Of a stretch of DNA of 14,704 bases, positions 1-13,362 are shown piece by piece; the stretch's first letter is position 1, and every line of letters begins with the position of its first letter. This DNA is from Elusimicrobiota bacterium. Its GTDB lineage: Bacteria > Elusimicrobiota > Endomicrobiia > CG1-02-37-114 > JAHJSO01. The DNA is taken from contig JAHJSO010000031.1 of the NCBI GenBank assembly GCA_018830385.1, positions 1 to 14,704 of the forward strand, in the 5' to 3' direction. The notes below the pieces were generated by a model. That model did not search any database and had not been told where the DNA came from. It was given only the letters and a program-made list of their open reading frames with translations. A program made the translations under genes and the position numbers.

Positions 1-960
1 GTATGCTACTGCATTATCCCAACTAACATTTATCACAGGTCTGTTTCCTCTGCCCCAGCCACTATCCGACGGTTTTGTCCTGCCTGTCGCTTCACAGAAC
101 TTATCATACTGCTCAAAGGTCACCTGATGTTTGTCTATGTAATAAGCATCCAGATAGACCTTGTGTGGTGGCTTTTCATCACCGCCACCTTCGTCCGAAC
201 CCATTAGAAACTCGCCTGCGGGTATATAAACCATTCCCTTATACTTCTTCTTCTTCTTCTTTGCTTCGGCTAAAAGTGTCTCAACTTCACCTGTTGCCCC
301 CAAGTTTATTGCCTTCTCAAATTCTTCTATTGCTTGAGTATATTTCTCTTGGCTCATTAACTTTTTACCATCTGATATATGTCCAGCAATCTTTCGTTTT
401 TGTTCCTCTTCTCGTCGGCTGGTTTCTTCATCTGCTTTTCTTTTTGCCTCTTCTTCTTTCTTTTTTTGCACAAATTTTATCTCATTCTCGGCTTTACTAT
501 CACCCGGCTTGTATCTCAGTGCTGTCTGATATGCAACTATCGCATTGTCCCAGTCGCCTTTGACGGAATGTTCCTGTCCCTGACTGAAATAATTTTCATA
601 CTGGTTTCTCATTTCAACTAAAAAAATAAAACTATCTCCTTTTAAGTCCTTATAATCTTTTGCTACCTGCCATATAATATGCTTTTCCCCGGAGCCTTCA
701 ACTCCATCTCCGAAATCTCCACTGGCAGTATTTACTTCCTTATCAAATGTTTTGCCGCCATCTTCGGATAATTTTAATGTAACAAAAAATACATCATTAT
801 CCGGGTTAATCAGTTCATAATATATATGGACAAGCCCTTTCATATCCTGCTTAAAATGAACATTTTGTATTTTAGGCTGAGCATACGAGACTGTAGCGGT
901 TTGATTTATCAAACATAGAATAAGCCCAATAAATTGAGCAACTATAAGAATTCGCTTCAT
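1..960 (-). CDS. Secreted TPR-like protein with formylglycine-generating-enzyme (FGE-sulfatase) domain, 3' end cut by window
   Basis: The frame is open from ATG at 960 to the window edge, giving 320 residues without a stop. Residues 1-27 form a signal peptide ending SYAQ. Residues 29-118 form a beta-rich domain (LSEDGGKTF, GDFGDG, IIWQV) of the type that precedes FGE domains in secreted bacterial proteins. Residues 120-238 are helical and charged with two TPR-like repeats (GDWDNAIVAYQTAL, EKYTQAIEEFEKAI) and a run of six lysines encoded by an AAG triplet repeat. From residue 241 the FGE/SUMF1 fold starts: MVYIPAGEFLMGSDEGGGDE, then VYLDAYYIDKHQVT and WGRGNRPVINVSWDNAVAY; roughly the first third of the domain is present. 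Catalytic cysteines would lie beyond the edge, so enzyme activity cannot be judged; many family members are non-catalytic binding modules. The start overlaps the preceding kinase tail as ATGA, and AAAGGA about 10 bases upstream is a weak ribosome site. Last visible gene of the LPP20-FHA operon. Confidence 0.88.
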   Translation of the reverse strand, partial: MKRILIVAQFIGLILCLINQTATVSYAQPKIQNVHFKQDMKGLVHIYYELINPDNDVFFVTLKLSEDGGKTFDKEVNTASGDFGDGVEGSGEKHIIWQVAKDYKDLKGDSFIFLVEMRNQYENYFSQGQEHSVKGDWDNAIVAYQTALRYKPGDSKAENEIKFVQKKKEEEAKRKADEETSRREEEQKRKIAGHISDGKKLMSQEKYTQAIEEFEKAINLGATGEVETLLAEAKKKKKKYKGMVYIPAGEFLMGSDEGGGDEKPPHKVYLDAYYIDKHQVTFEQYDKFCEATGRTKPSDSGWGRGNRPVINVSWDNAVAY

Positions 961-1066
961 CTCTTAATATTCCTTTTATATTTCTCCTGTGATTCTTTTA
1001 GTTTTTGCTGAACTTTTTTGGTTTTTTTGTAGCGTTCCATTTCATATGGGACATTCACCACGGCAA
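957..1066 (-). pseudogene. 3' remnant of the interrupted Ser/Thr kinase reading frame
   Basis: Directly after the ATPase stop codon and in the same phase, codons run open from 1066 to a TGA at 957-959. They encode a short basic tail (AVVNVPYEMERYKK..., ending NIKR). The TGA overlaps the FGE gene start as ATGA, the usual sign of translational coupling between operon neighbours. Joined to the kinase relic at 2093-2245 through the shared TTGCC, the text becomes SDMYSLAVV, which matches the conserved Hanks-kinase helix-F motif (D-I-Y-S-L-G-V-V). This stretch is therefore read as the end of the kinase gene rather than a free-standing gene. It is only about 35 residues after that motif, shorter than a normal kinase C-lobe, so part of the C-lobe had also been lost. 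A free-standing 33-residue gene from GTG at 1058, or 27 residues from ATG at 1040, is possible but has no ribosome site. Confidence 0.5.
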
Positions 1067-1067
1067 T

Positions 1068-2035
1068 TTACCACCAGAGCCACCAGGGGATAAAGTAAAT
1101 GGCCTTTCTGCCTATAACTTCCTCTTTAACATCACCCCGGTATACCAGAATACCGAATGGCGCCTCTTTCCCGCCAGGTGCGGACTCAAAAAAGGCATAA
1201 TAATTTTTCTTTTTTCCCCTGGGAAAACTTTTACTGAAGCACATCTCTACAGGCACATACATCCTTTTCCTATTTTCAAAAATAAGGTCAATTTCATGAC
1301 CTTCGTAGTCACGCCAGAAATACATATTTTTCGGAGAAGAACGATTTTCATTTTCTGATTCAAACGATTTTATTAAAATATTTTCAAACAGAAATCCTTC
1401 TGTTGTACCTTTGATATGTTCCTTCTCGGTCCGTTTTGATAGAAAATTTGCCACACCAACATCAAAAAAGTACATCTTACTACTTTTAACAAACCGTTTT
1501 CTTGCACGGGCAAATAATGGTGAAAGTGGATTTAGAATAAAAGTATCTTTTAATATTGAGATATACTTTTTTACAGTGTTGTAGGCAATGCCAAGGTCTG
1601 ATGAAAGCGAGTTTAAATTAGATATAGAACCAACCTCAAAAGAAATGGTTTTTAACAAATTGGAATAGTCATCAAAATTTCCCACCTCGCCTAAAGCGCG
1701 GATGTCCCGTTCAAGGTATGTGCTTATCATACTGGAAACCCTAAGGTATTTTTCATCAGGTAATTTGGCGGTATAAACCCCTGGTAAACTGCCTTCTATA
1801 AGTATTCTTTCAAGAAGTTTATCTAAAAGGTCTCTATGCCTGTAAAGAAGCGATTGCCGGGAAATGAAAAAATCCTTTCTTTTGAGACAATACCCTGTTC
1901 GGCTACCGTCTCCTTAAGTTTCATAAGAAGCGTTGTCTTGCCAACCTGTCTCGCTCCCAGTATAGCGGTTATCATGCCCGTCTTCAGTCGGTTTAGGCAG
2001 GTTGTTTCAATTTCTCTTGAAATATACTGTTTCAT
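1068..2035 (-). pseudogene. AAA ATPase (AAA_14) with C-terminal DUF4143, broken by internal deletion and frameshift
   Basis: The 5' part (ATG at 2035 to TAG at 1823) encodes MKQYISREIE..., a Walker A P-loop GARQVGKTTL at residues 27-36, and stops after about 70 residues. A second frame opens near 1890 (RDLLDKLLERILIEGSLPGVYT) and continues into the 3' part ending at 1068. That part holds a winged-helix-like segment (LGIAYNTVKKYISILKDTFIL) and the DUF4143 nuclease-like core (GFLFENILIKSF, MYFWRDYEGHEIDLIFE), ending IPWWLWW. Intact members are single proteins of about 400 residues; here roughly 100-150 residues between Walker A and the LPGVYT motif, including Walker B and the sensor region, are missing, and the two parts are in different frames. 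The family is common, often in many diverged copies, and its biological role is not settled (toxin-antitoxin and defence links have been suggested). It has its own promoter, and AGGGG precedes the start at good spacing. The C-terminal part has a nominal ATG at 1730, but that lies inside the domain and is not a true start. Confidence 0.85.
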
Positions 2036-2061
2036 TTCAACCCCTACTTTTCATCAAGGTT

Positions 2062-2090
2062 ATGATAAATATTAGCATAATATTTGTTAA
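2062..2090 (-). promoter_or_regulatory. Sigma-70-like promoter of the inserted ATPase gene
   Basis: On the minus strand a -35 box TTAACA (2090-2085) is separated by 17 bases from a -10 box TATCAT (2067-2062); each box matches five of six consensus bases. Predicted start of transcription is near 2055, leaving a leader of about 20 bases with AGGGG before the ATG at 2035. It sits inside the insert, so the ATPase gene carried its own promoter. It could also drive the FGE gene downstream. Confidence 0.6.
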
Positions 2091-2092
2091 AA

Positions 2093-2245
2093 GGCAAGAG
2101 AATACATGTCTGACCGTGCATCTGATAAACCAAGATGCTGCTCTGGCGACATATAAGCAAGTGTGCCGGAAGTATCTTTGCCACTAAGTCGTGATATTAC
2201 TTCGTCGCTACACAGGGACAGGTGTAATGATACTAAAAATATTTT
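2093..2245 (-). pseudogene. Relic of a Hanks-type Ser/Thr protein kinase (activation segment only)
   Basis: The stretch between the FHA gene and the ATPase looks intergenic but encodes the hallmark kinase activation segment: SRLSGKDTSGTLAYMSPEQ followed by HLGLSDARSDMYSL. The SGT-x-x-YMSPEQ block with SD(I/M)YSL at the correct distance is diagnostic of bacterial Hanks-type kinases (subdomains VIII-IX). The frame continues upstream as KIFLVSLHLSLCSDEV, where the DFG motif would be expected but is not seen. The ATP-binding N-lobe and the HRD catalytic loop are absent, so this cannot be an active kinase. In the insert the frame ends at TAA 2089-2087; across the insert it continues in phase as the tail at 957-1066. 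An adjacent kinase fits the FHA domain of the upstream gene, because FHA domains bind phosphothreonine. High confidence in the homology, moderate in the reconstruction. Confidence 0.75.
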
Positions 2246-4290
2246 CAAACTATTCTGTATCTTATTCCTTTGTAATCAACATTTGAACCATCACATAATA
2301 TCTGTGAAGTATCGGGTGTCCGAAGCACTATTACACCGTCTTTTACGGATATCTGGCAATCACCCGATTTTTCATAAACAATTCCTATTGATTTGAAGGC
2401 GATAGGTATTGCCGGTTCATTGCCGGCAAGCACAATTATATTCCTGTCATCCGCTTCTATGAAAAGGCCGCTGATTTTTTGATGTTCATCAATATCCCTC
2501 GGGTCAATTTTCATTTCAGAAGGAATTGTCCCCGGCACCAATGTTGATTGGACAATTTCCCTGCCCCGACATATATGAACAGTCATTCTGTATGAATGCG
2601 ATATGTCAAGGATATCCCCGTCTTCCATCTGTGAACGGGTTATCTTTTCACCGCGATGGTATGTTCCGCCAGCGGAGTTTAAATCCTCCGCTATTACTTT
2701 ATTTTCAACAATACATAATTTAAGATGATTGTCGCGGCTAACCTTTAGATTATTTATGTCTATATCAGGTGTTCCTCTGGCTTTTCTTGCAAGTGTTATC
2801 GTATCCTTTTTGAAAACAACTATTTCTTTACCAATTTTTTCCGGCTTCAGACACAATTTTTCCGACTTTCTTGATTTTTCAATATTACTTAAAATATTTT
2901 CCGCTGATTCCCGAAGGTCCTTATTGGTTTTTACTACTTCTTTTAGCAATTCCTCGGCTTCTGAAATTTCACCTTTTGAAATATGTTCTTCAGCCCTGTT
3001 AACATTCTCTTTGCTTGCCTTAAATCTATTTTCAACCTCTTCCCTGATATTATCAAAATTGTCCGGTGAGGGCAATGCCAATCTTTGAGTAGCCATTTCC
3101 GGCATTGATACAAGTGATTTATACTCAACCCAGGAATCATCCTTATATAAAGAATCCATCTCTTCCTGTGCTTTTGATAATTCACCATTGTCTATAAACA
3201 TTCTTATCTGTTCCTGTTTCTGTCTTATCTTTTTGCATATATTATGTCCTTCTATAAACTTCTGATATTTTGCTATCATTTCGGTAATTTCAGGCAATTC
3301 AAGATACTGCGGCAGGTTTTTTAAGTCATCATATTCTTCATCTGTTAAACACACATTTTGTCTTAATTTAGTTCCCAAATTTATATACCTTACATACGAT
3401 TCTTCAGCCCGACGGGGATTGTCTTTCGTTACAACCATTAACCTGTGCTTGAATGCAATAAAGTCAGTATTTGCCGGGAAAAAATCTAATTGTTGAGAGA
3501 CCAAAGAATTAGCGCCCGTATATGAGCCCTTCTGAATGTATTCCTCAAGTTTTTGCATCGCTTCGGGCACCAATTTTTCCAACTTCCTGCGTTTCAACAC
3601 CAAAACTGATGAAGTTATAATAAAAAACAAAAATGCGCTTCCGAATATACCGCTACTAATATAAGTTCCATAAAGAATCGCTTGCTGTATATTTCTATAT
3701 TTTTTGAAATATACCGGGTGCGTAAAGGATACATCGCTTGAAAATTCCGCTTTTCCAGATGAACGGTTAATCACAGTAACGATAATTTGACAGTTTTCTA
3801 TGCTTCCTGGCAACCACTTCCATTCCGCCATAATATCATAGTCAACCCTTATTCTATCGCCTTGTATCTGGAATCGTATATATGCCTCAGGATCTATAAA
3901 ACCTGCACTTATTAAACTTTTCTTTCTCGCTATATCTTCGTTTTTCCGTTTTTTTATTTCGTTTAATTGTTCTTCTGGTGCAATAACCATCCAACCATTA
4001 TATTGTCCTAATGCAAGATTTATATCTTTTTTCAATTTTTCTATTTCTTCGTCTATTGGTCCTACGATATTTTTCAAACTTACAATGTAACCTCTTAACT
4101 TTTTTCCCTGCGATTGTTTAACAATATCTTTACCAACCATAGCAATTGCATATTCCGCAGGGGTTATATTATACTTTTCATAGCCGGCGGGAATTATTCG
4201 TTCCGGGAACAATTGCCTGTAAAAATAAATCAAAGGAAATATTAAAGAAAGACCCATTAAAACAAATAAAATTTTACGCAATTTTTGCAT
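2245..4290 (-). CDS. Two-TM envelope protein with periplasmic CsgG/FlgO-like region and cytoplasmic C-terminal FHA domain
   Basis: 681 residues. A signal anchor spans about 7-24 and a second helix about 206-233 (followed by KRRK), so residues 25-205 should be periplasmic and 234-681 cytoplasmic. The periplasmic part has a weak resemblance to CsgG/FlgO/LpoB-type domains (YAIAMVGKDIVKQ near 47-59, RVDYDIMAEWKW near 148-159, then IIVTVINRSSGKAEFSSD). Residues 236-475 are helical and TPR-like. Residues 494-575 form an FHA domain: VSRDNHLKL (S518, R519, H522) and DLNSAGGTY (536-544). The usual GR pair reads AR (501-502) and the Asn of the NG pair is Gly541, so phosphopeptide binding may be altered. 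A further beta-rich segment (605-681) ends the protein. AGAGGA seven bases before the ATG supports the start. It lies 22 bases after the upstream gene and directly before the kinase relic, which fits a signal-relay role (inference). Confidence 0.87.
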   Translation of the reverse strand: MQKLRKILFVLMGLSLIFPLIYFYRQLFPERIIPAGYEKYNITPAEYAIAMVGKDIVKQSQGKKLRGYIVSLKNIVGPIDEEIEKLKKDINLALGQYNGWMVIAPEEQLNEIKKRKNEDIARKKSLISAGFIDPEAYIRFQIQGDRIRVDYDIMAEWKWLPGSIENCQIIVTVINRSSGKAEFSSDVSFTHPVYFKKYRNIQQAILYGTYISSGIFGSAFLFFIITSSVLVLKRRKLEKLVPEAMQKLEEYIQKGSYTGANSLVSQQLDFFPANTDFIAFKHRLMVVTKDNPRRAEESYVRYINLGTKLRQNVCLTDEEYDDLKNLPQYLELPEITEMIAKYQKFIEGHNICKKIRQKQEQIRMFIDNGELSKAQEEMDSLYKDDSWVEYKSLVSMPEMATQRLALPSPDNFDNIREEVENRFKASKENVNRAEEHISKGEISEAEELLKEVVKTNKDLRESAENILSNIEKSRKSEKLCLKPEKIGKEIVVFKKDTITLARKARGTPDIDINNLKVSRDNHLKLCIVENKVIAEDLNSAGGTYHRGEKITRSQMEDGDILDISHSYRMTVHICRGREIVQSTLVPGTIPSEMKIDPRDIDEHQKISGLFIEADDRNIIVLAGNEPAIPIAFKSIGIVYEKSGDCQISVKDGVIVLRTPDTSQILCDGSNVDYKGIRYRIV

Positions 4291-4312: not shown

Positions 4313-5899
4313 TTATTTTAACCCTTTTATTTCTTTTTTGATTTTTGAAATCAAACTGGACTTTATTTTCCCAAGCGCATCCCATCCTGCATTAGAGGCG
4401 CTCGTTCCAAAACCTTTCGCTGATGGGCCATCGTCAATTGATGCAACAACATCCCCTTCGGGTAAAGAATAAATTTCCGCCTTGCTTGTAATATATGAAT
4501 AAAACATTTCATAATCGCCGACTTTACCGCCATCTGCTTTAATAATTACAGCAATCAGATAATCGGCGTTCTTTTCACCCATATTCCTGATATCCTCATC
4601 TTTCACTTTATCTGTTTTCATATTATAATCTATAACATCATATTCTAAACTTCGCAGGATTGCTTTAAGCGAATTTTCAATCATCTCGGATTTATTTCGT
4701 TTTTGTGTATTAAAAAAATTAACCGCACATAAAAAGGTTTTTTTCCTGGAAATAGTAATAACGCAAAAAGGATTTTGTATCTGTTTTTCATCAACTTTTA
4801 ATGCTTCCGGATCCAACTCAACCTGAACTGATGTTTCCTTATATGAAGAATCTATTCTCTCTATGGGTATCTGCACTTCACCTAACCGATTGGTAAGCAA
4901 AGTCCTGTTTGCGATTTCACTGTTTCCTTTGCCTTCAATAAAGGAAGCGTTTACTTTTATATTAGCGATAGGTACTTTCTCATTTTGCTCTTCATATATA
5001 ACCTTTACTACGGGATATTTCCTCAGTTTGCCATCGGTTCCATATACAACCTTTTCATCAACCGGTTCTAGCTTAATATTGCGGAACATTTTTATGATAT
5101 TTGTATCAAAAAAAGCATACAAATCATCCGGTTTGCCGTCGTTGTCAATATCTTCTTGAGCAGGAAGTTCATAAAAACATTTTTTAAGATTCTCTTTGCC
5201 AGTCAAAAAATTCTCTAATGCTGTAAGATATAATTTTTCCTTTTGTGCTTTTAATCCTTCAATAGCATATTTTGTTATCTGTACTATATTCTTTTTGATT
5301 TCCTCCTGCACATCACGTTCATAATCACTTTTTGACACATAACATATCATAGTAACCATATTCTTTTCGGGATAATCCTTATATGGTTTACTTATAACTT
5401 TTTTAAGTATTTCCCTCGTATAAGATTTAGTAATTCTTTCAAATTTTTCTTCAGCACCTCTGCTTGATGCATATTTCAATTCATCTTTTACCGTTGTTTG
5501 TACCTTTATTCTTATTGAACTTGATAGGTCATCTATCGCTCTATTCTTGGCTTCGGCTTCAGCATTGTCGGAATCCTTTTCACTAACTGCACGACCTTCG
5601 CCGACATATAAATCAACATTCTGTCTGTCTTTATATGATTTAATTTCTTTTTCTATCTGCTCTCTTTCCTTTTTTTGTTCTTTCGCTCTTTCTTTTAACG
5701 CTTTCTTTCGCTCTTTCTCCTCCTGTTTCTTTTTGTTTTTTTCTATCTGCTCTCTTGCCCTTTTTTCAATCTTTTTCTGGTCATATTTACCACTATAAAT
5801 CAAAGGAAAGGTATCACCAAAAGGCCATAAATCAATTGCGTCTACACGCGAATACATAGAACAAACAATAATTACAAAAATAGCGATTTTCTTAAACAT
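4313..5899 (-). CDS. Periplasmic LPP20-like protein with N-terminal coiled coil and C-terminal CsgG/FlgO-like domain
   Basis: 528 residues. Residues 1-21 form a signal peptide (cleavage after VDA), with no lipobox cysteine in a convincing place. Residues 40-92 are a highly charged Lys/Glu coiled coil. Residues 96-200 resemble the LPP20/FlgP-type domain (LYVGEGRAVSEKDSDNAEAE, AIDDLSSSIRIKVQTTVKDE). Residues 248-260 (EDIDNDGKPDDLY) look like a calcium-binding loop. Residues 296-362 resemble an Ig-like or carboxypeptidase-regulatory beta domain (PIANIKVNASF, TNRLGEVQIPIERI). The last 145 residues (NADYLIAVIIKADGG, then ITSKAEIYSLPEGDVVASI) follow the pattern of CsgG/FlgO-like outer-membrane assembly proteins. 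GGAGG nine bases before the ATG supports the start, which overlaps the end of the preceding gene by 28 bases. Structural or scaffold role in the envelope is inferred; domain limits are approximate. Confidence 0.85.
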   Translation of the reverse strand: MFKKIAIFVIIVCSMYSRVDAIDLWPFGDTFPLIYSGKYDQKKIEKRAREQIEKNKKKQEEKERKKALKERAKEQKKEREQIEKEIKSYKDRQNVDLYVGEGRAVSEKDSDNAEAEAKNRAIDDLSSSIRIKVQTTVKDELKYASSRGAEEKFERITKSYTREILKKVISKPYKDYPEKNMVTMICYVSKSDYERDVQEEIKKNIVQITKYAIEGLKAQKEKLYLTALENFLTGKENLKKCFYELPAQEDIDNDGKPDDLYAFFDTNIIKMFRNIKLEPVDEKVVYGTDGKLRKYPVVKVIYEEQNEKVPIANIKVNASFIEGKGNSEIANRTLLTNRLGEVQIPIERIDSSYKETSVQVELDPEALKVDEKQIQNPFCVITISRKKTFLCAVNFFNTQKRNKSEMIENSLKAILRSLEYDVIDYNMKTDKVKDEDIRNMGEKNADYLIAVIIKADGGKVGDYEMFYSYITSKAEIYSLPEGDVVASIDDGPSAKGFGTSASNAGWDALGKIKSSLISKIKKEIKGLK

Positions 5900-8749: not shown

Positions 8750-11700
8750 TTATTCCACCAGTTTCCTGTAATACTGCTTGATAATCGTTTCGTGCGTTTC
8801 CGGATATCTTTCCTTCAGTGATTTCATAAACTCCTCTTTAAGTTCCCGTGAAGGGAGGTAGTCGGCCTCGCCGGGCAGTTCCACGAAACCGGTCCGCACA
8901 CCCATCACTCCGCCTGTCCCGCCGTGTGAACCGCCACCCTGGATGAAGCCCGCCATCGGCTTGTTGAATTTCTGCTGCATCATTGAAAGTCCCTCGGCAG
9001 AGGACTGCATTGACTCTTTCGCCTTCGTCAGGTAGTCAATCGCCTGCCTCTGGTTTTCAAGAGCCCTGTTGGTCTGACCGACGACTATGTTCCCTTCGGA
9101 TCCGCTCATTTCTTCCGCCGCCATCCGCAGGTTTGACGACAAATCGGGGCTGATTGAGGCGGTCTGCCGTGAAAATTCCTGGACGAGTTTGTCCAGCGAA
9201 AGTGTCCGGTTTTTTATGTCCGCCTGCCCATCCGAAAGCGAAGAAAGTTTTTTCTGTTCCGAATCGGAAAATTTAACCGCCATTGTGGAATTCAGGACGT
9301 CAAGCACATCTTGTTCCGTCTTCTCCAGCCAGGCCGTGTCTTCGCCGATACCCGCCCACTCCGACGACTGGGCGGTTGACACTGCATTCGCATACCTTTC
9401 CACAAGCGCCCGTGCCGACTTAATCTGGAGTAATATCTCCGCAAGATACTCCTTTGATTTTATTGCCTTTTTTGAAACAAACTCTTTGTGGACGAGATTC
9501 ATCCTGGGCAGGGGACGGCTTATCTCCCTGCCGTATGCTGAAGAGAATTCCATGTTTCTTATCACGCCTGCTCGCGACGGCATCTCTCCGGTTTTATCAA
9601 TTACCGCCTTCTGTAACTTTGCAAGTTTTTCAAACAGCGACTCCTGTTCCTTTATGACTTTCTGCTGACGGATGTTTTCCATTCCCTGTGTTTCGGACAT
9701 TAACCGGTTCTGCCGGGCGACAATGTCGTCTAATTCGGTCAGGCCCTTCTGCATGCCTGCGGACATCGCGCTATCCACGCCTGAAAAACCCACCGACTTA
9801 CCCGCTTCCTGCATCGTCTTAAGCATTGACTCCATATGCTCAAGCATTTTCTGCGCCTGCTTCAGGGCGGATTCAAAATCCCCTTTGGCGAGGGCGTCCC
9901 TTATGCCGCCTGACAGATCCCCTATCTTAGATGGGTCAATCTGTTTGACGGCCGGCTGGTTTATGAACTCCTCCGGCAGCATTTGCGGGAATTTTTTCAA
10001 CAGGTCGTTAACCTGTTTTGTGAGTTCGTCAATCTTGTCAAGCATTTTATTCAACTCGCTAAGTTTTTGTGAATCAACCGGGGACTTTAACGAGTCCTGT
10101 ATCTGCCTGCTGATGTCTGAAAGTTTGTCTCCTGCGGAGAGAGCGTCCTGCATATACTGGTACTGGAGGACGTCTTCCGAGAGGAGGTTCATCTTTTCAA
10201 GCGCCCGGACTGCGTCCTGCATTTTATTGTCCGCCGAAGTCCAGTCGCCTTTTGAAAGTGACTCCTGCGCCTGCTGCATCTGGTTGGCTGACAGCGAGGC
10301 AAGGGCGGAACTCATGTTTTTGTGTTCCAGGTAAATCTGGTAGTTGATGAAAGGGTCTGTTTCCATCCGGCTGACGGTTTCACTGAGTTTTTGCGATAAG
10401 TCCATCGCGTCTTTACCGGCATCCTTTTGCGAATCAATCAGGGGCTTAACCCGGTCCGGCGTGATGGACGACGGGTCTTTCATAACTTCTTCAAGCCCCC
10501 TGCGGACGGACATCTGGTCTGAAAGGAGTTCAATAAGGCCGTCCCTGAAATCCCCCAGTTCCTGTTCAATCTTCCTGTGATGTTCCTCGTAACTGAAAAT
10601 CTCAATCCGGAAAGTTTCGGAGCGCGCCATCTTGGAACCGGAAATTGCATCGTTATCTAAAGCCGCAAGGTGATAACTGACAATATCGCCGGGGGACGGC
10701 GACAGCAGGGAAACATCCAGCGTGTATGTGTGGGTTATTCTCCGGACAGGCGGAGTGAGCCGCTTTACGGGGATTCTTTTACCGTCATAAACGAGTTCCA
10801 CAAGTGATATGCCGTAGTCATCCGACGCCCTGTAAACAACCGGGATTTTTGCGTCCGCTGAAACCACTATGTCCTGTCCCGGGGAAATGAGCGTTATTTC
10901 AGGCGGCATATCATTTTCCATAAGAAGCGGGTAGTGCGGCGGCGACGGGTCCCTGATATCATCGTTCTCCCGGGAGACCAGTTCAAACCATACTTCGCCT
11001 TTCTTCTCCGCGATAATCTCGCCTGAAACGATACCGCCCTTTTTAATAACAAGCGACGTTGCCTTCCCGTAGGAAGTCAGGATGCTTCCTGCCTTTAACG
11101 GCACTGGACAGGTCGCCGAGAATTCTATTCTTGTGCCCGGCAAAACGCCTCTTTCGCCGAACATACTGCCCTGTTGCGGCTCAAGTTGGGTATATACGGG
11201 AAAATGGTAAACAAGTTTAAAATCCCCCAGCCGCGGTACCGTTAAACATTTAATCAGATATCTTTCGCTCCTCAGGTATTTCCACTTCACAAAATACAGA
11301 ATATCCTCAACCACACGGATGCTTTCAAAGACAAACAGGGTATCACTCTTCTTTTGCAAATTCCCCGTGTCAAATATTGCGCCTGGTTTTAATTCGCTCC
11401 AGTCGTTCTCCCCCGTCCTTACGAAAACCTGCGGCACATGCAATGTTTCCGGCGTTTTCATTTCAACCGATATCTCAATTTCGGCGCCGCGCAGAACGCC
11501 CGTATTACCCGGCAGGACGGTAAAATAACGCGATAGTTCAACCGCACCCCCGGGTGACAGGAACCTGGGTATGTTTTCGGTGAGAATCTCCGGCGACTTA
11601 AAATAGAATGCGGCCGTCAGCATGATAAGGACGATGACCGGGGGATAACCTTTTACGAACGGGCTATACGGGACTACGTCCTCCGGGGATATACCATCCA

Positions 11701-12097
11701 GTTCAAGTTGGGTCTTATCAACGAACATTTTCGCAAGTTCAACCGAAAGCCCCAACGATGAAATCCTGTCAACGGACCTGTTTAGCATCCATGCGTTGAT
11801 GGGGTTGTCTTTCAGTGAGGGATGCCTGTCCTGAATCTTCTTTATGATTTCAATATCCTTTATTCTTAACTTCCCTGCAAGACGCAGCCCTATCAGGCAA
11901 AATACTACAAACACAAGGGACAGCGCTCCCGTCCTGACAGACGACACAAGCGGGTGAAAATAATCAACGAAAGAGGCGAATAATACGATTGAGTAGCCCG
12001 TAATGACGGCGAACGCAAACGATTCAACCGAGTGGTAAACCGTTATTCTGCGCCTCACATCCCTGATAAGTTTGTCTAAAGTGTGCGTCAATCTCAT
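8750..12097 (-). CDS. DUF4175-type membrane protein with large coiled-coil domain
   Basis: 1115 residues. Two N-terminal helices (about 24-45 and 57-75) and a third (about 150-166) anchor the protein; the rest is probably periplasmic. Residues 185-500 are beta-rich with repeated Ig-like patterns (GAEIEISVEMKTP, PPEITLISPGQDIVV, YRASDDYGISLVELVYDG). Residues 510-1040 are a long Gln/Met/Ser-rich coiled coil. A Gly-rich linker (IQGGGSHGGTGGVMG) leads to the C-terminal motif FVELPGEADYLPSRELKEEF ... YPETHETIIKQYYRKLVE, which is characteristic of DUF4175 proteins. Relatives often lie beside MoxR ATPase, DUF58 and VWA (Bat) genes; here the neighbours are glycosyltransferases and a metallopeptidase. 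The molecular function of the family is unknown. No ribosome site is visible before the ATG at 12097; a 15-base palindrome (12101-12115) lies there instead. The peptidase gene follows within 61 bases. Confidence 0.85.
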   Translation of the reverse strand: MRLTHTLDKLIRDVRRRITVYHSVESFAFAVITGYSIVLFASFVDYFHPLVSSVRTGALSLVFVVFCLIGLRLAGKLRIKDIEIIKKIQDRHPSLKDNPINAWMLNRSVDRISSLGLSVELAKMFVDKTQLELDGISPEDVVPYSPFVKGYPPVIVLIMLTAAFYFKSPEILTENIPRFLSPGGAVELSRYFTVLPGNTGVLRGAEIEISVEMKTPETLHVPQVFVRTGENDWSELKPGAIFDTGNLQKKSDTLFVFESIRVVEDILYFVKWKYLRSERYLIKCLTVPRLGDFKLVYHFPVYTQLEPQQGSMFGERGVLPGTRIEFSATCPVPLKAGSILTSYGKATSLVIKKGGIVSGEIIAEKKGEVWFELVSRENDDIRDPSPPHYPLLMENDMPPEITLISPGQDIVVSADAKIPVVYRASDDYGISLVELVYDGKRIPVKRLTPPVRRITHTYTLDVSLLSPSPGDIVSYHLAALDNDAISGSKMARSETFRIEIFSYEEHHRKIEQELGDFRDGLIELLSDQMSVRRGLEEVMKDPSSITPDRVKPLIDSQKDAGKDAMDLSQKLSETVSRMETDPFINYQIYLEHKNMSSALASLSANQMQQAQESLSKGDWTSADNKMQDAVRALEKMNLLSEDVLQYQYMQDALSAGDKLSDISRQIQDSLKSPVDSQKLSELNKMLDKIDELTKQVNDLLKKFPQMLPEEFINQPAVKQIDPSKIGDLSGGIRDALAKGDFESALKQAQKMLEHMESMLKTMQEAGKSVGFSGVDSAMSAGMQKGLTELDDIVARQNRLMSETQGMENIRQQKVIKEQESLFEKLAKLQKAVIDKTGEMPSRAGVIRNMEFSSAYGREISRPLPRMNLVHKEFVSKKAIKSKEYLAEILLQIKSARALVERYANAVSTAQSSEWAGIGEDTAWLEKTEQDVLDVLNSTMAVKFSDSEQKKLSSLSDGQADIKNRTLSLDKLVQEFSRQTASISPDLSSNLRMAAEEMSGSEGNIVVGQTNRALENQRQAIDYLTKAKESMQSSAEGLSMMQQKFNKPMAGFIQGGGSHGGTGGVMGVRTGFVELPGEADYLPSRELKEEFMKSLKERYPETHETIIKQYYRKLVE

Positions 12098-12152
12098 TGG
12101 TGTTTTAATAAAACATTCCGGTCGGAGTTTCGGCCTTTTGCTAATTTACTCA

Positions 12153-12236
12153 TGTCATTGCGAGCGACTAAAAGGAGCGTGGCAATCTATCTTCAAAAGC
12201 GAGATTGCTTCGTCGCTGACGTTTCTCGCAATGACA
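12153..12236. repeat. Imperfect palindromic repeat (MITE-like, GTCATTGCGAG type)
   Basis: The ends are exact inverted copies: TGTCATTGCGAG (12153-12164) and CTCGCAATGACA (12225-12236). Nested arms also pair: AGCGAC (12163-12168) with GTCGCT (12212-12217), and GCAATCT (12182-12188) with AGATTGC (12202-12208). This is the widespread dispersed palindrome whose translation gives the familiar SLRATKRSVAI and SLAMT peptides in many unrelated bacterial genomes. It starts seven bases after the glycosyltransferase stop codon, between that gene and the DUF4175 gene, so as RNA it could fold into a long hairpin that stops or uncouples transcription. Small shifted frames within it are not genes. Confidence 0.85.
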
Positions 12237-12243
12237 ACAATGT

Positions 12244-13362
12244 TCACCCGCTGATATTCTTACACGCAATTTTTGCTATATCCCTTGCAGCAAACGGCTT
12301 GCTAAACCTCTTGATGTTGTCCCTTAAAACCGATAACCTCTCCGGGTATTTCAGAAGACCGTGCAGGGTTTCTATCGCCTCATCCCTGCCTGTCCGGACA
12401 AAACCGAAATTATTGCTCTCAATAAGTTTTGCGTTTCCTCTTTCCTGACCCGGGGTAAATACGGGAATCATAATCGGCTTGCCGGCGGCAAGCGTTTCCA
12501 TTACTATCGCCCCGCCGCCCTTTGAAACCACCAGGTCGGACGCCCTTAAAAAATCCGCCATCCTGTCTGTCCAGCCGACTATCTTTGTGGGGACGTCGTA
12601 TTTTTTTTGCTGAAGCACGTTCTGCAGTTCCTTGTATTTGCCGGTTATCACTATCACCTGGAAATTAAGTTCTTTATGTTTTGAGATATTGTCAATTATT
12701 TCCAGAAACCTTTCAACATTGCCAAGTCCGAGGACGAACAGCAGGGTGGGCATATCAGCCAGCCCGAATTCGTTTAAGAATTTCTTCCTGTCAAGTGGCT
12801 CGCCCAGCAGGGTTGAAACCGGGAAACCGCTGACGACGATTTTTTCCTTTTTGACGCCCTTGCTTTCAATTATGCCTCCCGTTGCGTCATCGCATACGAA
12901 ATACATATCCGCATCAGGGTCAATCCATGTCTGGTGTATTTCTATTGCATCCGTAACGACGCAGAAATACCTGACCCTCTTGCCGTTCTCCCTGTTATGG
13001 TCGTTTATCAGGAAGTTCCAGTAAGGGTGGGTGACTATGCATAAGTCCGGGTTTTCCGAGTCAAATATTGCGTGGACCTTTCTATAAAAAAGAGGGAACA
13101 GCGTTTTAAAATAATAGGTCGCAGCCCTGCTGTTTGTCCAATCAAAGAATGTGTCCCACACCCACGGCTTCTCCATTGACCAGTTATAAAGTTTCTGGAA
13201 AGTCCGGCCCGCATTGATAAAACCTTTGGTATTTATAAAATCGTAGGTTTTCACCTCAACGTCCTGCGGCTTGATTTTGTGGATTTCCTCACCTATGCTT
13301 CTGCTGGCGGAAATGTGTCCCGTGCCGTAACCCGCTGTTAAGAGTAAGATTTTTTTTGACAT
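12244..13362 (-). CDS. GT28/MGDG-synthase-like glycosyltransferase (processive diacylglycerol glycosyltransferase type)
   Basis: 372 residues, two Rossmann domains of the GT-B fold. The N-terminal glycine loop GYGTGHISAS (11-20) matches the MGDG-synthase/UgtP/MurG pattern. FCVVTDAIEIHQTWIDPDAD (133-152) and DMYFVCDD match the family's conserved linker (VVTD...H..W..P..D.YFV). The C-terminal nucleotide-sugar site reads SKGGGAIVMETLAAGKPIMI (280-299) and GQERGNAKLI (305-314); the usual KPGG is KGGG here. Known relatives add glucose or galactose to diacylglycerol at the cytoplasmic face of the membrane; donor and acceptor cannot be told from sequence. The start overlaps the upstream stop by one base (TAATG), and AGGGGGA six bases before the ATG is a good ribosome site, so the two glycosyltransferases are translationally coupled. 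Confidence 0.88.
   Translation of the reverse strand: MSKKILLLTAGYGTGHISASRSIGEEIHKIKPQDVEVKTYDFINTKGFINAGRTFQKLYNWSMEKPWVWDTFFDWTNSRAATYYFKTLFPLFYRKVHAIFDSENPDLCIVTHPYWNFLINDHNRENGKRVRYFCVVTDAIEIHQTWIDPDADMYFVCDDATGGIIESKGVKKEKIVVSGFPVSTLLGEPLDRKKFLNEFGLADMPTLLFVLGLGNVERFLEIIDNISKHKELNFQVIVITGKYKELQNVLQQKKYDVPTKIVGWTDRMADFLRASDLVVSKGGGAIVMETLAAGKPIMIPVFTPGQERGNAKLIESNNFGFVRTGRDEAIETLHGLLKYPERLSVLRDNIKRFSKPFAARDIAKIACKNISG

Follow-up and report, generated by a model that had tools for sequence, protein, structure and literature searches.

The minus strand of the window (the whole stretch of DNA analyzed, 14,704 nucleotides from an Elusimicrobiota bacterium) carried an FHA-domain gene, a scrap of a Ser/Thr kinase gene, a putative insert, a short open tail, and a TPR/FGE-sulfatase gene, in that order. 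The FHA gene (positions 4290 to 2245; 681 amino acids; FHA E value, 1.5e-5) lay directly upstream of the kinase scrap, which occupied positions 2233 to 2093 and was recognized by motif reading and with a kinase profile. The insert (2092 to 1067) was followed by the tail (1061 to 957), a stretch of 34 open codons reading VVNVPYEMERYKK...NIKR* that was assigned by frame reading and the kinase profile and is possibly the 3' end of the kinase gene. The TPR and FGE-sulfatase gene (Pfam) started at position 960 and ran off the window at position 1.

The kinase scrap contained an activation segment (...GKDTSGTLAYMSPEQ...SDMYSLA), and no N-lobe, catalytic loop, or C-lobe was seen on either side of the insert. 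Pfam returned no family for the 40-amino-acid scrap, which scored 42.3 bits against a profile built from 19 kinase segments of relatives. The preliminary description of this DNA had named a Ser/Thr kinase gene as the host of the insert; the kinase segment stood up to analysis, but the gene itself had shrunk to a remnant some 47 codons long.

On the minus strand, the sequence SGTLAYMSPEQHLGLSDARSDMYSLA ended at a TTGCC (2097 to 2093), and a second TTGCC was located at positions 1066 to 1062. When positions 1067 to 2092 and one TTGCC were excised, the frame continued as SDMYSLAVVNVPYEMERYKK...NIKR*, and its stop codon overlapped the start codon of the next gene as ATGA (960 to 957). As first described, the sequence contained the kinase motifs and both TTGCC copies at the given coordinates, and the frame calculation and ATGA overlap were correct. 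The joined reading scored 48.2 bits with the 19-kinase profile, compared to 42.3 bits for the scrap, so the join added 5.9 bits. The joined frame had also been said to match the conserved kinase motif, and this was true in part: the residues VV fit directly, but YEM required two extra residues, and the remainder showed no kinase similarity. A gain of at least 5.9 bits was also obtained with 21 of 2000 random stop-free continuations, with 47 of 2000 shuffled tails, and at 5 of 83 local start points, the real one included. As a lead, the restored frame and the TTGCC copies lie above chance, but they are weak.

The insert held a broken gene and no transposase open reading frame (ORF). Its N-terminal part (2035 to 1823) started with an ATG at position 2035, encoded the Walker A motif GARQVGKT, and ended at an out-of-frame stop codon (1825 to 1823). 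This part matched the AAA_14 ATPase profile only at positions 3 to 26 of 129, below the cutoff, so the Walker B region was missing. The C-terminal part (1913 to 1068; E value, 1.8e-35) was in a different frame, contained a DUF4143 domain at positions 1712 to 1239 (Pfam E value, 6.3e-35; 120.7 bits against a cutoff of 28.1), and ended with a TAA at 1070 to 1068. PADLOC assigned it to PDC-S01 (E value, 6.9e-37). DUF4143 is a PD-(D/E)XK-type nuclease domain, and PDC-S01 genes fuse it to an AAA_14 ATPase. Thus, the DUF4143 half of the ATPase/DUF4143 gene reported earlier was present, but the gene was not intact; with a frameshift and most of the ATPase domain gone, including the pairing of Walker A with Walker B, it was classed as a pseudogene of the PDC-S01 family.

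The two proteins nearest to the C-terminal part (76% and 74% identity) were likewise short (239 and 262 amino acids), and their contigs measured 1556 and 1800 bp. The missing middle was present in longer relatives at 46 to 51% identity, and one of these, P0005, had a Walker B motif (FLFIDEAQ) that was read by eye. In an alignment that was also read by eye, the usual lysine of the E-x-K motif was replaced in all five sequences, namely, the window copy and P0002 to P0005. A search of solved structures with a related intact protein yielded nothing useful.

In the portions of PMC12988326 drawn on here, PDC-S01 is presented as a very widespread single-gene phage defense candidate in which an ATPase is fused to PD-(D/E)XK. 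It was discovered through guilt by embedding, has undergone multiple cross-domain transfers, and is the fourth most common defense system across prokaryotes, with the antiviral activity of most PDCs being a candidate function that awaits validation (PMC12988326, in part). In rumen genomes, PDC-S01 is the most frequent individual locus, according to the consulted part of PMC13356809. The consulted part of PMC4158269 lists, as a likely defense protein, an AAA+ ATPase that carries fused HTH and RecB nuclease domains and that may or may not belong to PDC-S01. The window copy resembled PDC-S01 in its AAA_14 and DUF4143 makeup and in its PADLOC match, and it differed in being broken. The preliminary description knew of no earlier account of the mobility of such single genes. 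The family proved to be an already known single-gene candidate, but the portions of PMC12988326 consulted contain no unit edges, palindromes, or target repeats, unlike the data from relatives presented below. Among the open-license literature matches listed, none dealt with the edges of DUF4143 units or with target repeats around them. Although PDC-S01 is so common, the literature that we found did not cover the movement of solitary genes of this type.

The edges of the insert were compact. The second TTGCC came one A after the stop codon of the C-terminal part, and TTGCC was the sole 5-mer common to both tight edges; when the edges were drawn loosely (71 by 106 positions), 16 shared 5-mer pairs were found. 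The left TTGCC could be a target duplication or part of the promoter of the unit, since it can also be read as a putative -35 box (TTGCCT, 17 nucleotides, TAATAT); a promoter scan listed another pair of hexamers at this place. The insert opened with an imperfect palindrome (2092 to 2060; inverted-repeat scan) with 15-nucleotide arms, 80% complementarity, and a 3-nucleotide loop. Its core, AAATATTA-TGC-TAATATTT at 2085 to 2067, was equaled in 14 of 400 shuffles of the 57- to 58-bp leader and in 6 of 400 shuffles of 120 bp, which is modest when taken alone. No pair of inverted repeats linked the two ends of the insert among the 25 of 42 pairs listed. The direct repeat at the ends was 5 bases in length, and no long direct target repeat was present.

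Neither the window locus with its kinase nor an empty site for it was found in 59 relatives or in a scan of genome contigs. Only one of the 59 relatives, G014, had a full-length homologue of the FHA protein (35% identity), and the region downstream of it contained no kinase. At the DNA level, the insert had no second copy in the source genome, where a profile search revealed two further DUF4143 genes, on contigs C3 and C9, both PDC-S01 in PADLOC. Because no relative carrying the insertion site was found, the 5-base duplication was unproven, and because the kinase and ATPase genes were both broken, either edge could stem from later deletions. The restored kinase frame across a 5-base duplication, which had been offered as proof of insertion, was therefore not established at this locus.

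We turned to Candidatus Endomicrobiellum (Elusimicrobiota, Endomicrobiia), a genus of termite gut symbionts in the same class as the window genome. The number of DUF4143 matches per genome ranged from 0 to 24, with none in G017 (99% complete), 17 each in G008 (Ca. E. incisitermitis) and G022 (Ca. E. roisinitermitis), and 24 in G028 (Ca. E. siamense). Sixty loci around DUF4143 genes were taken from six genomes, the genomes and loci being picked for DUF4143 richness. These loci contained 91 DUF4143 domain matches, 66 of which were in frames of at least 340 amino acids and 23 of which were short or interrupted. PADLOC placed all three Endomicrobiellum proteins that were tested in PDC-S01.

Between species, DUF4143 genes often shared just the segment that begins at an upstream palindrome and finishes at the stop codon. 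Where a pair of genes had room on either side, homology restricted to the gene and its leader was seen in 15 of 74 DUF4143 pairs (11 of 38 genes, 5 groups) compared to 6 of the 147 pairs of control genes (5 of 84 genes, 2 groups), the groups being counted by hand. In the two cleanest groups (L069/L077/L090 and L102/L122), homology extended from the position of a palindrome or close to it, 73 to 101 bp before the start codon, to -1 to 6 bp from the stop codon, and the flanks were unrelated; in L069/L077/L090, the starting point was a long palindrome. A strong inverted repeat (z > 3) was located in the 120 bp before the gene in 19 of 66 DUF4143 genes and 18 of 301 controls, and an inverted-repeat score of at least 10 was reached by 19.7% and 2.0%, respectively. 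The palindrome may be a control site for the HTH region of the gene's own product. No shared motif was seen at the right end of the units. Near-identical DUF4143 copies within a genome were not found, and alignments longer than 800 bp averaged 65 to 71% identity. The window unit, despite its decay, had the compact anatomy of the PDC-S01 units in relatives: a palindrome at the left edge, a 57-bp leader, the gene, and an edge 1 to 6 bases past the TAA.

One-gene insertions of the PDC-S01 family recurred in these relatives. With G008 as the reference, we classified 47 flanked DUF4143 ORFs from other genomes and 244 control ORFs from the same loci. In the case of the DUF4143 ORFs, 16 were in place with both flanks, 3 had one flank, 7 (at 5 loci) corresponded to an empty site, 5 were found elsewhere only, and 16 were unclassed. 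The corresponding numbers for the controls were 134, 43, 4 (at 3 loci), 5, and 58. Empty sites were thus found for 7 of 26 assessable DUF4143 ORFs and 4 of 181 controls (Fisher P = 5e-5 for ORFs and 7e-4 for loci). This count replaced an earlier one (7 of 11 versus 4 of 106) in which the rule for calling a gene present was too strict. The longest additional ATG-initiated ORF in the five DUF4143 inserts was 69 amino acids. The control empty sites belonged to an M48 peptidase (two genomes), an MFS protein, and an AAA-ATPase_like + PDDEXK_9 gene, so gain or loss of one gene was not unique to DUF4143. Two candidate empty sites were rejected as deletions within a DUF4143 gene: at L070/L078, where G022 retained the first codons, and at the L088 locus in G008 and G093. 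At the L088 locus, a 75-bp stretch (query positions 778 to 852) that was near-identical in many genomes bordered the DUF4143 gene; it was tRNA-like by size alone.

The direction of change was clearest at site A because many genomes were empty there. At this site, a DUF4143 gene lay between ruvA and ruvB in G028, and the two genes were 65 bp apart in G032. By a hand count from the listing, 21 of the 41 genomes in this genus had ruvA and ruvB on the same contig with no more than 300 bp between them. The ruvA-ruvB interval was 1.2 to 2.4 kb in G017, G005, and G058, and the genes were on separate contigs in G008, G022, G039, and some others. The interval is perhaps a recurrent insertion site. The copies of the site A gene in G008 and G022 shared only the unit, and a duplication at site A was not readable. 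Next to ruvB, a gene outside the DUF4143 family (AAA-ATPase_like + PDDEXK_9; L090 positions 11026 to 12856, G028:C40) had a perfect 46-bp direct repeat on its two sides; this site was empty in G008 and G032. PADLOC gave no match for this gene. Like PDC-S27 genes, it resembled PDC-S01 as a single ATPase and nuclease-type gene, but both belonged to other Pfam families.

At site B, a gene common to G022, G039, and G093 was missing from G008 and G028, and the overlap between the flank matches in these two genomes was 30 and 29 bases. The target repeat was best preserved in G093 (23 identical bases; 26 of 27 overall), followed by G022 (22 of 27), and the copies in G039 were more diverged. This 23- to 27-bp repeat was the sole readable target duplication of a DUF4143 gene in the relatives, which spoke against a 5-base signature for the family. 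At site C, the gene surrounding a unit of G093 was a DUF234 ATPase gene, called PDC-S27 by PADLOC, that had lost its 3' part, and the match of the unit in G028 was gene-limited. At four more one-gene empty sites relative to G008 (sites D to G), the gaps measured 75, 11, 78, and 268 bases, and no duplication could be read. At sites other than A, the gene may have been lost in G008 instead of gained elsewhere.

Several arrangements were seen alongside these sites. A PDC-S01 unit was located within a PDC-S27 (DUF234) gene, one candidate defense gene embedded in another, at L190 (2192 to 3370, G022:C22) and at L122 (9208 to 10443, G093:C4). L122 was rejected as a clean insertion because the unit had replaced the end of the host gene, the 3' part of which was gone. 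The site after a PIF1-like helicase gene held a DUF4143 gene in G028, about 1.35 kb of other DNA in G093 (L126 positions 4440 to 5793, G093:C15), and 75 bp in G008.

Taken with the window itself, these data make it reasonably probable that positions 2092 to 1067 are a dead PDC-S01 unit that was inserted, without a transposase of its own, into what is now a relic of a Ser/Thr kinase gene. We infer that one PDC-S01 gene would have entered the kinase gene as a compact unit consisting of a palindrome, a 57-bp leader, and one ORF, with its end at the stop codon. The unit would presumably have been a mobile defense gene with the palindrome as its control site. The kinase gene lost nearly all of its length after the insertion or already before it, and the ATPase gene was left with little of its ATPase domain and a broken frame; the insertion is probably old. 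Integration may have occurred as in the relatives, through end joining or repair-like integration of DNA gained by horizontal transfer, with target duplications that vary and without an encoded fixed-stagger transposase. Because target repeats varied in the relatives, a transposase with a fixed 5-base stagger is disfavored, and repair-type insertion is favored. The preliminary description had suggested that an AAA/DUF4143 gene standing alone can be mobile as a compact unit with no transposase; the empty sites and gene-limited homology bore this out in the relatives, where such mobility is real. At the window site, an insertion is likely and a 5-base duplication is possible; neither is proved, given the chance rates at the join and the edges and the lack of a genome with an intact kinase at that position.

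Known systems offer partial parallels. Restriction-modification systems reportedly insert with long target duplications (Kobayashi and co-workers), and a 2016 article by Zheng, found among the references of PMC11257099, is said, by its title, to concern an Endomicrobium symbiont whose restriction-modification systems are mobile elements. Both there and here, defense genes enter without a transposase and with long, variable repeats; the present cases differ in that single ATPase-nuclease genes are involved and in that the repeats in the window are at most 5 bases. Insertion sequences with short fixed duplications share with the window a short repeat at both ends, but we found no transposase, terminal inverted repeats, or second genome copy here, and repeat lengths in the relatives varied.

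The strongest alternative, which we regard as possible but unlikely, is that no insertion occurred and that successive deletions juxtaposed an ATPase pseudogene and a kinase scrap, with TTGCC arising by chance or as part of the ATPase promoter. The truncation of both genes, the lack of kinase lobes on either side, the 16 chance 5-mer pairs at the loose edges, and the deletions that cut DUF4143 genes in relatives are consistent with this idea. Where DNA is decaying, transposition is not proved by a short repeat and a frame that happens to fit. On the other side, kinase similarity ended exactly where a DUF4143-type unit with a palindrome started, the tail was open, in frame, and terminated in the ATGA overlap with a gain of 5.9 bits, and one-gene insertion was common for the DUF4143 family in relatives. 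We favor insertion over a rearrangement leftover for the window copy.

A further question is whether the inserted gene moved itself. PDC-S01 and perhaps other ATPase + PD-(D/E)XK genes could be mobile units complete in themselves, made up of a palindrome, a leader, an ORF, and a stop codon, whose encoded protein drives wide-stagger insertion with repeats of about 25 to 50 bp, but we consider this improbable. For the window, the corresponding reading, in which the ATPase and PD-(D/E)XK nuclease would cut the target with a wide stagger and insert their own gene, the palindrome being the end of the element, seems marginally less probable still. Sharp unit edges and palindromes did recur, and target repeats of 23 to 27 and 46 bp accompanied two different ATPase + PD-(D/E)XK genes. 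Against self-mobilization, the within-genome copies were never near-identical (65 to 71% identity over alignments of >800 bp), the repeats were variable in length or absent, the right end had no visible shared motif, and the unrelated M48 peptidase and MFS genes likewise had one-gene empty sites. Self-mobilization is therefore a minority reading next to repair-type insertion. The mode of insertion is directly testable because empty sites, sharp edges, and target repeats co-occur in closely related symbionts.

Movement in trans by a transposase acting on small repeats (MITEs) around the gene is very improbable and was rejected: GGTCAAGTCAGGT was enriched within 400 bp upstream of DUF4143 genes (5 of 62 versus 0 of 283 controls, one mismatch allowed) and the L105 gene had repeat ends on both sides, yet 57 of the 62 genes had no GGTCAAGTCAGGT upstream, the downstream counts were 4 of 62 and 6 of 283, a second repeat was not enriched upstream (0 of 62 versus 8 of 283), and the sharpest units excluded the repeat, which did not occur in the window within two mismatches.

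MITE-like dispersed repeats crowded the DUF4143 islands of the genus (g5), including L105, L104, L121, and others. Short ones had GGTCAAGTCAGGT/ACCTGACTTGACC ends, and a repeat of about 200 bp had GGTCTAGTTTAGAA ends. At L075 (8997 to 10199, G008:C47), a DUF4143 gene had on each side a copy of a sequence (about 220 bp) that was single in G093, and it is possible that recombination between these repeats moved the gene.
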